A DNA stretch of 37,515 nt from assembly GCA_025774845.1 (NCBI GenBank), contig JALGZP010000028.1, positions 1 through 37,515 of the forward strand. The letters are read 5' to 3'. Positions 29,093 through 35,157 of this stretch are shown one piece after another. Position 1 is the stretch's first letter, and every line of letters starts with the position of its first letter. The notes beneath the pieces were generated by a model, which was given only the letters and a program-made list of their open reading frames with translations, did no database searches and had not been told where the DNA came from. A program made the position numbers and the translations under genes. The stretch is from a bacterium. GTDB lineage: Bacteria > Arandabacterota > Arandabacteria > Arandabacterales > Arandabacteraceae.

Positions 29093-29944
29093 TCAGCGGG
29101 ACCGGGGCGCGAGGTGATAACTCTTTATGCGGTCGAGGCGGTACACCTTCTCTCTCGCATCCGTATGACAGAACGCCGCCAGATAGACGGTACCACCGTA
29201 ACCCAGGATCGCGCGCGGGGTTATTTCACGTGGCTCCTCACCTTTCGTGCCGCCTTCATAGACCATCACGATCCGGTGCCTATCTCGGATTGCAGCCGCG
29301 AGGTCTTCAAATCCGACGGGGGGTTTCGCCTCATATATGCTGCGTGAGCTCTCAAACACAATGGGTTTGGTGAGGTTACCGAGATCCGCAATCGTCTTTA
29401 CGTTGGGAGCCTTCTCGAGGAGCGTAAGGAATACATCCCGTGTCAATCTTGCATCCGCCAGCGCGCGGTGTTTCTGACCCATCGAAATCCCGAGCATGGT
29501 GGCCAGATTCACAAGACTGTAACTCGGCAGAAGAGGCATCACGGCCTGGGCAAGCAGCTTTGTGTCAAAGATCAGGTGGGTCGGAAACGTAAGCCCGAGC
29601 CGTATCAGATCCACGCCAATAAAGCCAACGTCAAAGGGAGCATTCTGGGCCACGAGGACGGTATCAGGAGATCCGAGGAAGTCGATGAAGCGCGGCATCA
29701 CGGCTTCCACTGTGGGCTGGCCCCGGACCATCTGATCGGTTATGTGATTGACCTGCTGAGCTTCGGGTGGAATATCGCTCTCTGGATCGATCAGTTGCTC
29801 AAACACCGCGATCTCATCCCCACCGGCAGTATAGCGGGTCGCGCCGATCTCGACGAGTCTCGCGGAGACGGGATAGAGTCCCGTCGTTTCCGTGTCAAAC
29901 GCGATGAAGTTGGCCTTGTCAATTCGCAGTTCTGGTGTTGCCAT
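29093..29944 (-). CDS. DEDDh 3'-5' exonuclease (DnaQ-like) fused to a WYL domain
   Basis: A 283-residue two-domain protein. Residues about 10-175 are a DnaQ-type exonuclease with all acidic positions: Asp17 and Glu19 in FDTETTG, Asp105 in NAPFDVGF, His159 and Asp164 in KHRALADAR. Residues about 212-280 match the WYL fold: an AAIRDRHRIVMVYEG start, the ITPRAILGYGGTVYLAAFC core (241-259) and the YRLDRI end (268-273). WYL domains are known ligand- or nucleic-acid-sensing modules, usually attached to HTH regulators and often linked to DNA damage or phage defence. The ATG at 29944 is chosen because GGAG lies eight bases upstream; a TTG codon just before it is less likely. Role unknown: ligand-controlled DNA or RNA trimming is an inference. 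Confidence 0.9.
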   Translation of the reverse strand: MATPELRIDKANFIAFDTETTGLYPVSARLVEIGATRYTAGGDEIAVFEQLIDPESDIPPEAQQVNHITDQMVRGQPTVEAVMPRFIDFLGSPDTVLVAQNAPFDVGFIGVDLIRLGLTFPTHLIFDTKLLAQAVMPLLPSYSLVNLATMLGISMGQKHRALADARLTRDVFLTLLEKAPNVKTIADLGNLTKPIVFESSRSIYEAKPPVGFEDLAAAIRDRHRIVMVYEGGTKGEEPREITPRAILGYGGTVYLAAFCHTDAREKVYRLDRIKSYHLAPRSR

Positions 29945-29976
29945 CAATACATCTCCATGCTGCTATTATGTTACCG

Positions 29977-30007
29977 TGATTATAATCAATCGCGACTATA
30001 CTCTCCA
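29977..30007 (-). promoter_or_regulatory. Promoter of the exonuclease-WYL gene with palindromic -10 region
   Basis: Minus-strand TGGAGA (30007-30002) and a perfect TATAAT (29984-29979) are 17 bases apart. The -10 box lies at the centre of a perfect 12-base palindrome, TGATTATAATCA (29977-29988), a possible repressor site. Confidence 0.45.
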
Positions 30008-30018
30008 GAGCAATATCG

Positions 30019-30786
30019 TCAACCGGTCTTCAGCACTTCGGCTATACGGTCATAAAGGTGCGGGTGGCCGGCCACACCTGCTCCATCAGGATAGGCGATC
30101 CTGCCCCCCGCTTCGGTGACAATGATCTCCCCCGCCGCTACATCCCACAGTTTCGGAGGCCCACCCAGGTTTACATAGCCGTCGTATGCACCACTCGCAC
30201 AGTGGCACAGTCCCCATGAGGCGATACCCACAATCCGGACCCGGAGACAACTGAGAATCAGCTTCTTCATCCTGGCAAGCGCCCTGTCCAGGGCTTCCTC
30301 GGTATCATGACGGGACGGTATCTCAAGGCAGATTAAGGCCTTCTCGAGGTCCGTCTCCCGGCTACACGAGATCTGCTCACCGTTGAGATGAGCGCCGTGG
30401 CCCTTAATGGCCGTGTACAACTCATCGTTTTCCGGGAAATAGACAACACCGAGGCTCAGTTCCCCTGCCGTTCTAAGGGCCACCGATATCCCGTAGAGCG
30501 GAATACCCCGCGCAAAGTGCCTCGTACCGTCAATGGGATCCACGATCCAGACGGAGTCCGCACCGGGGTTCTTTTCACCCGACTCTTCGGATATCACCCC
30601 ATGATCGGGGAATTCCTCCGACAGAAAAGAGACGATCGCGTCATCGACCTGGAGATCGATATCCGTCGTCACTTCACACCTCGGCGAACTGCTGACGACC
30701 TTCGAGCGGCGGAAACCCTGCCGTGCGATTTCACCGGCAGACATGACTGCCGGGATCACCTTGCGAATTATCTCCTCATCCCGCAT
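30019..30786 (-). CDS. Inositol monophosphatase-family phosphatase
   Basis: A 255-residue Mg-dependent sugar or nucleotide phosphatase. Metal-binding motifs are intact: Glu67-Glu68 in SEESG, Asp83 and Asp86 in WIVDPIDGTRHFA (80-92) and Asp215 in LWDVAAGEIIVTEAGG (213-228). Length is normal for the family, which includes inositol-1-phosphatase, HisN-type histidinol phosphatase, fructose-1,6-bisphosphatase IV and PAP phosphatase; the sequence alone does not decide between them. It starts 15 bases after the phosphohexomutase gene, with AGGAAGG overlapping that stop, so the two form an operon, pointing to sugar-phosphate metabolism. Confidence 0.92.
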   Translation of the reverse strand: MRDEEIIRKVIPAVMSAGEIARQGFRRSKVVSSSPRCEVTTDIDLQVDDAIVSFLSEEFPDHGVISEESGEKNPGADSVWIVDPIDGTRHFARGIPLYGISVALRTAGELSLGVVYFPENDELYTAIKGHGAHLNGEQISCSRETDLEKALICLEIPSRHDTEEALDRALARMKKLILSCLRVRIVGIASWGLCHCASGAYDGYVNLGGPPKLWDVAAGEIIVTEAGGRIAYPDGAGVAGHPHLYDRIAEVLKTG

Positions 30787-33133: not shown

Positions 33134-33316
33134 ATGAAGATCTGCATACTCTGCCTTATGCTCCTGGCTGCCTTCCCGGGGATAGCACCCGTCTGCCGCG
33201 CAACCGGTATAACCGCAATCCGGCCTGACACGACTGTTGTCCCGAGATATGGTAAGTTTGAGGTTGAGTTCGACCTATCCATGACGTATTTCAATTTGAT
33301 GCGTGCTTATATGTGA
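33134..33316 (+). pseudogene. N-terminal fragment of a frameshifted secreted glycoside hydrolase
   Basis: This frame begins at ATG 33134, eight bases after GGAG. It encodes a signal peptide (about 22 residues) and the start of a DUF5060-like N-terminal domain, with VVPRYGKFEVEFDLSMTYFN. It should continue with N-P-F/Y-D and the rest of the domain, but after TYFN the frame runs into TGA at 33314. The continuation FDACLYVIPPSGD is present in the next frame from about 33295, so the gene is broken by an indel of one base (mod 3). Confidence 0.75.
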
Positions 33317-35157
33317 TCCCACCCTCCGGAGACACGTTGGCGGTACCTGCGTTCTGGTACCAGGACTATGAAAGATCGAACACCGGTATGGATGAAATCC
33401 TGTCCGTGGTGGGAAGTCCCCGCTGGATGGGGCGCTTCGGGCCGCTTGAGACCGGACAGCACACCTACTTTATAGAGGTCACGGACTCAGCCGGTTACGT
33501 GCGTTCGGATGATTCAACGTTCATCTGCGAGGCATCAACTTCAAGAGGTTTCGTCCGACCTGCACCTTCCAACGCCAGACTCTTCACATTTGATGACGGG
33601 AGCTACTACCTGCCCAACGGACAGAACGTATCCTGGGCGACAAATCTCGGTACGTACGACTATGACATGTACTTCGATGAGATGGAGACAAACGGAGAGA
33701 ACTGGGCAAGAATCTGGATGACACACTTCTACCGCGGCCAGACCCTTGAATGGAATGAAGACCACTGGACCGGGTACTTCCATGGTCTGGGTGTTTACAG
33801 TCTCGAGTGCGCCTGGAAAATCGACTACATCGTGGAGCTGGCCAGAGCGAGGAGCATCTACCTTCAGCTGGTATCTCAGCATCATGGACAGTTCAGCACG
33901 GCGGTCAATCCGGAGTGGGATCAGAATCCGTATAACACCGCAAACGGCGGAATGCTCTCCTCCCCCGAGCAGTTCTTCACCAACACGGCGGCACGGGATC
34001 TATACAGACGCAAGACGCGTTATACCGTGGCACGGTGGGGTTATTCCACGAGTATCCTGTGCTGGGAGTTCTGGAACGAGGTACAGTATACGGATAACTA
34101 CAGTCCAGCCACGGTCGCATCCTGGCACGCCGAAATGGGCCAGTACGTTAGATCGATCGATCCGGCCCGGCACATGCTGACCACAAGCGCCCGGCAGGGA
34201 GATACAGTCATATGGACACTCCCCGAAATCGATTGTACACAGCTTCATCTCTATATCGGTGAGATCACCAACACCATAAGAAACAAGATCATCTCGATGT
34301 GGACTCATGATAAACCCGTGATCGTCGGTGAGTTTGGCTACTATCCCCACGGTACCGGCTGGGCGGACACCGATGGTACGCATATTCACAATGGTATCTG
34401 GTCTGCAGCTATGGCCATGACCGGTGCGATGCCATGGTGGTGGGATAACTACATACATCCCGAAGATCTCTACTACCACTGGGGTGGTCTGAGCAGTTTC
34501 TTCGAGGGGGAGGACCTGAGGTTTCCCATGCTCGATACGGTCCACGTCAACGTGTATGACTCGACCGGTGTTCCCACAGCAGCGCCGAGAGGTTATGCAA
34601 TAGGGGATAGCATCTGTGCCTACATCTGGCTTCAGGACCCCGGTAACACCATAGGAAACACTCCCGATGGCACTTTGAGCGGCATATTGATAGAGATCGT
34701 GGGCATGGCCCACGGTGATCACGACATCGAATACTGGAATACGTTTCCAGGGACCAAGATCGGCGGTGATGTAATCGCCTGCAGCAATGATAGTCTTGCG
34801 ATCCCCATCCCTGATTTCAGTCTGGACATCGCCATCAAGGTCAAGCGGCAGAATGAGGTCGGCATCCTGCCCCCCGGATTCCCTGATACGCCGGCGGTTC
34901 CTCGGCTGCGTGTTTCACCGAGCCCCGTACACCACTCCACCATTCTCCAGATGGAACCGGGCTGCGATGCACAAACGGAGATCAGCATATACGATGTAGC
35001 AGGGAGGCTCGTATGGAAGAGCATATCGGTCGCGGGTGCTCCGGTTGAGTGGGACGGCCGGAATATAGATGGTGATGAACTCCCGTCCGGGATCTACATA
35101 TCCAGGGCAGTCGCACACAATCGGGAATTCACCGGTAAGATCGTCATCCTCAGATGA
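33313..35157 (+). CDS. Secreted glycoside hydrolase (GH-A clan, cellulase-like) with FlgD-like tail; 5' end frameshifted
   Basis: The main reading frame (614 residues from GTG 33313; the true domain continues upstream to about 33295). Residues about 1-75 finish a DUF5060-like beta-sandwich (LAVPAFWYQDYER, RFGPLETGQHTYFIEV). About 85-400 is a TIM-barrel glycosidase: DGSYYLPNGQNVSW, NWARIWMTHF, acid/base Glu256 in LCWEFWNEV and nucleophile Glu340 in VIVGEFGY, as in GH5-like enzymes. A linker and beta domain (about 405-525) lead to a FlgD/T9SS-like tail with SPSP, YDVAGRLVW, WDGRNIDG and SGIYISR, ending IVILR. A beta-linked polysaccharide substrate is likely but not specified by the sequence. 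No ribosome site supports the GTG as a real start; it is the downstream part of a gene starting at 33134. Confidence 0.85.
   Translation: MIPPSGDTLAVPAFWYQDYERSNTGMDEILSVVGSPRWMGRFGPLETGQHTYFIEVTDSAGYVRSDDSTFICEASTSRGFVRPAPSNARLFTFDDGSYYLPNGQNVSWATNLGTYDYDMYFDEMETNGENWARIWMTHFYRGQTLEWNEDHWTGYFHGLGVYSLECAWKIDYIVELARARSIYLQLVSQHHGQFSTAVNPEWDQNPYNTANGGMLSSPEQFFTNTAARDLYRRKTRYTVARWGYSTSILCWEFWNEVQYTDNYSPATVASWHAEMGQYVRSIDPARHMLTTSARQGDTVIWTLPEIDCTQLHLYIGEITNTIRNKIISMWTHDKPVIVGEFGYYPHGTGWADTDGTHIHNGIWSAAMAMTGAMPWWWDNYIHPEDLYYHWGGLSSFFEGEDLRFPMLDTVHVNVYDSTGVPTAAPRGYAIGDSICAYIWLQDPGNTIGNTPDGTLSGILIEIVGMAHGDHDIEYWNTFPGTKIGGDVIACSNDSLAIPIPDFSLDIAIKVKRQNEVGILPPGFPDTPAVPRLRVSPSPVHHSTILQMEPGCDAQTEISIYDVAGRLVWKSISVAGAPVEWDGRNIDGDELPSGIYISRAVAHNREFTGKIVILR

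Follow-up and report, generated by a model that had tools for sequence, protein, structure and literature searches.

DEDDh enzymes carry out 3′-5′ hydrolysis by means of two metals, and the exonucleases of DinG are described as degrading single-stranded DNA (ssDNA) in the 3′-5′ direction. Exonuclease I, an ssDNA-specific and processive enzyme, is built of an exonuclease domain followed by an SH3-like domain (PMC4319927). WYL domains are most familiar from transcription factors, in which they form the half that senses ssDNA or a ligand. One such factor, PafBC, has an HTH plus a C-terminal WCX extension (PMC6789036). Alanines introduced together at R211/R214 of PafB and R201/R204 of PafC abolish ssDNA binding and ssDNA-driven activation; this loss is reported to be due to the PafB pair alone, with binding near normal when only the PafC pair is changed (PMC11804915). 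The WYL domain of the Thermotoga elfii Pif1 helicase binds ssDNA and is required for helicase activity (PMC9964779).

A single sentence of Makarova et al. (2014; PMC4012209) lists a "3′->5′ exoRNase" among the enzymes with which WYL is combined. In a 2019 survey of WYL architectures, the word exonuclease is absent from the main text (PMC6789036), and we found no characterized exonuclease-WYL member by title or abstract in the open-licence literature. The architecture is thus already in print; as far as we have searched, the extent of the family, the conservation of its residues, its phage members, and its nondefense context appear to be new. Here, we describe such a protein, with its WYL domain on a nuclease, from a 37,515-nucleotide stretch of bacterial DNA, which we refer to throughout as the window.

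Gene and domain structure

The features of the locus, all on the minus strand, are as follows:

29093..29944, minus strand: exonuclease-WYL gene, 283 aa (open frame and translation; stop codon 29093-29095)

29429..29905, minus strand: DEDDh 3′-5′ exonuclease domain, residues 14-172 (Pfam RNase_T; PolC exonuclease 9qpc, Z 25.4)

29117..29311, minus strand: WYL domain, Sm-like barrel, residues 212-276 (Pfam WYL; PafBC/CapW/BrxR/DriD folds)

29129..29140, minus strand: R269-L-D-R272, arginine pair at the position of R201/R204 in M. smegmatis PafC (profile alignment to 7p5x_AX)

29979..30022, minus strand: two overlapping promoter-like sites 5′ of the gene, 10/12 matches each (consensus scan alone; not evidence of function)

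The gene starts at an ATG at 29944, with a TTG at 29947 as a possible alternative. A 74-base gap separates it from the preceding inositol monophosphatase gene (stop at 30019), and the promoter-like sites lie in or beside this gap; the consensus scan gave five such sites in the region, compared with 1.9 expected. In Pfam, RNase_T matches the protein with 109.6 bits (cut-off 24; E 3e-31), and in the same place in the genome-wide scan, while WYL matches with 49.4 bits (cut-off 21.8; E 4.5e-13). A second route leads to the same WYL assignment: a sequence match to PafBC (E 1.5e-8) with the window stretch alone as the query. Pfam gives no HTH match in the protein, whose N terminus is the exonuclease and which ends just after the WYL domain. 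PADLOC assigns it generic DEDDh, WYL, and exonuclease-effector models, with PDC-S48 over the exonuclease part. Since the same two-domain protein recurs in two more genomes from the phylum and in at least 33 of 386 genomes overall, the joint between exonuclease and WYL is not an assembly accident.

An earlier note, made from the letters of the window, had read the gene as a DnaQ-like exonuclease fused to a C-terminal WYL domain. Pfam, the PafBC sequence match, and the fold of residues 202-283 all agree with this reading. The note had also called the DEDDh residues complete, and D17, E19, D105, H159, and D164 are indeed all present; likewise, the absence of an HTH is borne out by Pfam. Its gene start, gene end, and C-terminal domain limits were right; it gave no strand, and the gene lies on the minus one.

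Distribution and origin of the family

Three of the eight genomes covered from the window's phylum carry the gene, and its WYL domain is the sole one over the cut-off in each of those three. Searching a sample of 386 genomes from across the domain with the window protein, we obtained 10 matches at E ≤ 1e-36, all 10 of which aligned through WYL. A profile of those 10 detects full-length fusions in at least 33 of the 386 genomes, representing at least 26 family-level groups and at least 37 genes. That there are 37 genes in 33 genomes is due to two genomes of one genus with three exonuclease-WYL paralogues each (L133, L140, and L141 in G386; L136, L139, and L150 in G120). In an independent Pfam scan, the WYL domain of the fusion passes the cut-off in 32 of the 33 genomes (the exception is G400). 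The fusion carries the sole WYL found by that scan in 17 of the 33, which means that there is no relay to a second known WYL protein in those genomes. At the strict limit, the fusion was not found among 296 genomes of a Treponema genome's phylum, where all nine matches were exonuclease-only.

Two IMG/VR contigs (L169 and L177) carry a fusion gene in which both Pfam domains pass their cut-offs, amid genes with PHROG matches; the genes upstream mostly match PHROGs of unknown function. These are the sole viral fusions by WYL profile among 158 loci (155 from the viral and genome contig scans), and a later WYL-profile scan of 104 loci yielded nothing beyond them and their copies (L245 and L262). 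When plasmid and phage collections were queried with the window protein, most best matches covered the exonuclease alone. Four candidate fusions, taken from the longer alignments, were rejected: an Acidovorax plasmid gene, with no Pfam WYL and with QSregVF_b as its further Pfam match; a Turneriella plasmid gene, with no WYL in Pfam; and an uncultured phage clone and an Alicyclobacillus plasmid stretch, with no match to the WYL profile.

In a tree of the exonuclease domain (111 rows: 37 fusions and 74 others), the fusions cluster: the label needs five changes, where shuffles need 31 on average. The bootstrap range is three to six changes, a constraint that keeps the fusions together has p-AU 0.045, and the tree contains long branches. 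The exonuclease tree does not discriminate between one origin of the fusion and several.

The exonuclease domain

The catalytic residues D17, E19, D105, H159, and D164 are kept in all 37 family members. Residue 100 (window 29645-29647), within an H-N-x-x-F-D motif, is Q in the window protein and H in 36 of the 37 members; Q100 is not among the five DEDDh residues.

By NCBIfam models, the domain falls with the PolC, DEDD, and DinG exonucleases. It misses the equivalog cut-offs for epsilon/DnaQ (TIGR01406, 88.4 vs. 222.7 bits; PRK05711, 84.6 vs. 196 bits), and the subfamily_domain model TIGR00573 is the sole DnaQ/epsilon model to be passed (102.7 vs. 71.5 bits). The nearest sequences are the DNA exonucleases PolC (2p1j, E 8e-25), DnaQ, and DinG, and not RNase T or oligoribonuclease. 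A whole-protein model, predicted from the window sequence and 25 related rows, has a mean pLDDT of 89.1 and a pTM of 0.77, with the WYL part folded as one helix and five strands. The modeled exonuclease matches PolC 9qpc with Z 25.4 (1.7 Å over 189 residues), and epsilon/DnaQ, DinG, ExoX, ExoI, and TREX are further fold matches. ExoI is ranked seventh and eighth by Foldseek, and RNase T appears from rank 28. The RNA-acting enzymes RNase T, ERI3, and 3′hExo are also near the exonuclease in the fold search, which counts against an ssDNA substrate.

The C-terminal domain of exonuclease I (Exonuc_X-T_C, PF08411) has no Pfam match in the window protein or in the whole window genome. We rejected the idea that the fusion replaces exonuclease I: PF08411 is present in one of the 33 fusion genomes, and the contrast is uninformative since the domain is found in just four of the 386 genomes overall.

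The WYL domain

The closest relatives of the WYL domain by profile are, in order, PafBC (E 3.3e-24), the WYL end of a Pif1 helicase (8bnv, 5e-14), PafC, CapW, and BrxR. The motif RFDR, residues 201-204 of M. smegmatis PafC (7p5x_AX; numbers counted from the alignment), aligns on the RLDR of the family. Both R269 and R272 are kept in 26 of the 37 members, including the window protein and its three nearest relatives. The full pair is absent in the other 11, and this counts against the domain acting on ssDNA, as does the fact that the window alignment reaches the PafC pair, whereas the functional weight in PafBC lies with the equivalent pair of PafB. By eye, the phage fusions (L169:3995-4783 and L177:3920-4753) keep the second arginine of the pair alone, a further point against ssDNA. 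The alignment of the WYL part is too variable for a pattern scan.

Because the phage WYL segments aligned badly with that of the window, the domain (residues 202-283) was folded by itself from the single sequence. The best of the five models has a mean pLDDT of 78.8, and two of the five exceed 70. The best 30 Foldseek rows for this model are exclusively chains of PafBC, CapW, BrxR, and DriD. In VIA-align, PafBC scores Z 10.3 (2.7 Å over 76), BrxR 10.1, CapW 9.3, and ssDNA-bound DriD 8.8, so that CapW and DriD in its ssDNA-bound form are among the nearest folds. Hfq is interleaved in the list at Z 8.8 and below; the Hfq/Sm proteins bind RNA, and their presence counts against the ssDNA reading.

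Relation to polymerase proofreading

In an RNase_T scan of 15 genomes, the fusion is the sole RNase_T protein in six (G000, G005, G006, G109, G151, and G172) and stands beside others, three or four in all, in four. The same scan found no RNase_T protein in five genomes of the window's phylum (G001-G004 and G007); the genomes are drafts in which single absences are weak evidence, the window genome being 87% complete and two of these five relatives 96% complete. The DnaE of the window genome is 1157 aa long and has an N-terminal PHP domain, the metal-site motif of which (HLHVHSDYSLLDG) we take to be intact. Since five of the eight genomes in the phylum lack the fusion, and since the polymerase of the window genome probably proofreads for itself, the fusion probably does not serve as an essential epsilon subunit. 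Members of the family thus do not look uniformly like housekeeping polymerase subunits, an outcome that the earlier note had named as fatal to its proposal, and the window protein is probably not the proofreading subunit.

Gene neighborhoods

The neighbors of the window gene encode an inositol monophosphatase, a glycosyltransferase, a phosphodiesterase, and a phosphomannomutase; the glycosyltransferase and the phosphodiesterase-like protein are downstream on the same strand as the fusion. Further along, 33313-35157 encodes a large secreted-looking protein with an end that, by eye, resembles a FlgD-type Ig-like sorting tail. The neighbors differ between the members of the window's subgroup (the window, G005, G006, and G109): G005 and G006 have a beta-lactamase-fold protein and an ABC-class ATPase with MRB1590_C, and G109 has DUF362 together with a beta-lactamase-fold protein. 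The ATPase genes (ABC_N, ABC_ATPase, and MRB1590_C; L079:5601-7373 and L080:3302-5029) are divergent from the fusion and are absent at the window locus. MRB1590_C is an RNA-linked domain.

After the removal of eight near-duplicates, 29 loci contributed genes within two places of the fusion (close set) and at four to six places (far set). The close set comprises 104 genes (109 listed, six dropped by hand, one added) and the far set 108 (125 listed, 17 dropped by hand); the frames dropped from either set were short, long, cut, or doubtful, and four miscalled genes of L080 were replaced. No PADLOC system part recurs among the 104 close neighbors (one model, mad2, in two proteins), and the same holds among the 108 far ones. 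The suggestion in the earlier note that the fusion is a defense enzyme is therefore unsupported. Across the set we also found no conserved partner family or operon, and no conserved neighbor that ties the fusion to DNA repair, in a check based on the first gene caller, which is poorer in GC-rich loci than the later one.

Signaling families are present among the 104 close neighbors (GGDEF, four; PAS, five; Response_reg, three; HATPase_c, three), and none of them is among the 25 families listed for the 108 far neighbors. In a post hoc comparison, a signaling gene lies within two genes in four out of nine lineages without the arginine pair and in three out of 20 with it. At L142:4945-7872 and L146:7075-9975 (clearest cases, G260 and G388), the fusion is flanked by a response-regulator-GGDEF gene and a GAF-GGDEF gene, all three overlapping on a single strand; the WYL domains of these two fusions lack the full arginine pair. 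A GAF-GGDEF gene (L162:113-1345) and a histidine kinase gene (L155:8927-9805) are located upstream of pair-less fusions on the same strand. These GGDEF genes adjoin some distant relatives and not the window gene, and cyclic-nucleotide control, which had also been raised, finds no support here.

Discussion

The explanation that we favor, and to which we give about an even chance, is that the protein serves genome maintenance in an accessory role, as a 3′-5′ ssDNA exonuclease of the DnaQ type (DEDDh, two-metal) with its C-terminal WYL domain as an ssDNA-gripping arm. In such an enzyme, the arginines R239, R269, and R272 of the WYL domain would hold the backbone of a single strand, and the 3′ end of the held strand would enter the exonuclease site. 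The grip would limit degradation to gaps, overhangs, and unwound ends. It might also lend the enzyme processivity, as does the multidomain build of exonuclease I; alternatively, the WYL domain may switch the enzyme on when ssDNA is present. That the domain binds ssDNA we infer from the arginine pair, the likeness to PafBC, DriD, and CapW, and the precedent of Pif1; that it keeps hold of the strand during trimming of the 3′ end is suggested by analogy with exonuclease I. On the favored reading, DNA rather than RNA would be the substrate, and the domain a tether rather than a switch. The sequence cannot tell tether from gate, and simple holding of the substrate by the WYL domain, the role proposed for Pif1-WYL, would explain the data as well as gating would. 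The earlier note had proposed a ligand- or nucleic-acid-controlled enzyme. We favor the nucleic-acid half, with the WYL domain directed to nucleic acid beside the nuclease, because R269 and R272 sit on the arginine pair that is tied to ssDNA binding in PafBC.

An ssDNA-gated nuclease, in which the WYL sensor would keep the exonuclease off until damage-derived ssDNA binds, would be a catalytic counterpart of PafBC and DriD. The WYL type and the arginine pair, common to ssDNA-activated regulators, speak for it, as do the 17 of 33 genomes with no other WYL found. However, PafBC has an HTH and the C-terminal WCX extension, whereas the window protein has no HTH and ends just after its WYL domain; moreover, with ssDNA as both ligand and substrate, a gate would add little, and we consider this reading unlikely. 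Less probable than gating is an RNase T-like exonuclease for RNA 3′-end processing or decay, with the WYL domain as an Sm-like RNA-binding part. The name "exoRNase" given to the partner in 2014 (PMC4012209), the place of RNase T, ERI3, and 3′hExo among the fold matches, the Hfq-like fold of WYL, and the MRB1590_C ATPase that adjoins the fusion in two relatives all point that way, but the sequence relatives are PolC, DnaQ, and DinG rather than RNase T or oligoribonuclease, the arginine pair resembles the one with which PafBC binds ssDNA, and the window locus is without the MRB1590-type neighbor.

We are more doubtful still about a broader proposal, in which the fusions would form a family of self-contained ssDNA-licensed nucleases, with DNA-damage sensor and effector in one chain, and in which some pair-less lineages, in an apparent diguanylate-cyclase operon (L142/L146), would have had their WYL domain retuned to another nucleotide ligand. 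An epsilon-like proofreading subunit of DNA polymerase III is improbable even beside that proposal: the exonuclease is PolC/DnaQ-like, and the fusion is the sole RNase_T protein found in six genomes, but five relatives (two of them 96% complete) have no RNase_T protein at all, the DnaE of the window genome carries an N-terminal PHP domain with an apparently intact motif, four of the 15 genomes hold the fusion alongside other RNase_T proteins, and the equivalog models fall below their cut-offs. To an anti-phage effector under the control of a WYL ligand we assign the lowest probability of all. Makarova et al. suggested that WYL-enzyme fusions serve defense systems (PMC4012209), and there are CRISPR accessory models for both WYL and DEDDh; against this, no defense gene recurs close by, the close set being equal to the far set in this respect, the genes around the window fusion are those of inositol monophosphatase, glycosyltransferase, phosphodiesterase, and phosphomannomutase, and two family members are phage genes. 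The fusion looks like a gene of genome upkeep rather than of defense.

The WYL module, with the PafBC-type arginine pair in 26 of the 37 members, is joined to a nuclease in at least 26 bacterial family-level groups and also in phages. If the ssDNA reading is true, WYL would be a general ssDNA-handling part that is used directly by enzymes, a nuclease as well as the Pif1 helicase. In the window genome the fusion is both the sole WYL and the sole RNase_T protein found, and a knock-out or in vitro assay in the family would therefore be unusually clean.

Comparison with known systems

The protein has the same combination of WYL and 3′-5′ exonuclease as that mentioned by Makarova et al. (2014; PMC4012209), whose passages on the exoRNase-WYL combination give no member, mechanism, alignment, or context; the label there is RNase, whereas the sequence relatives of the window exonuclease are DNA exonucleases. 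The exonuclease domains of PolC and DinG are its best matches in sequence and in fold but sit inside a polymerase or ahead of a helicase, unlike here. Exonuclease I (SbcB) has a like plan, a DEDDh exonuclease and then an SH3-like domain (PMC4319927), and is a fold match to the window exonuclease; it also has a C-terminal helical domain (479 aa in PMC4319927) that the 283-aa window protein lacks, and the window protein has WYL in place of the SH3-like domain of exonuclease I. PafBC, DriD, CapW, and BrxR share the WYL fold, and PafBC the arginine pair as well, but these are transcription factors, whereas the window protein is without an HTH and its output is a nuclease. Pif1 (Thermotoga elfii and Deferribacter; PMC9964779, 8bnv) likewise carries a C-terminal WYL domain, close in sequence (5e-14), on a nucleic-acid enzyme, which is a helicase there and a predicted nuclease here.
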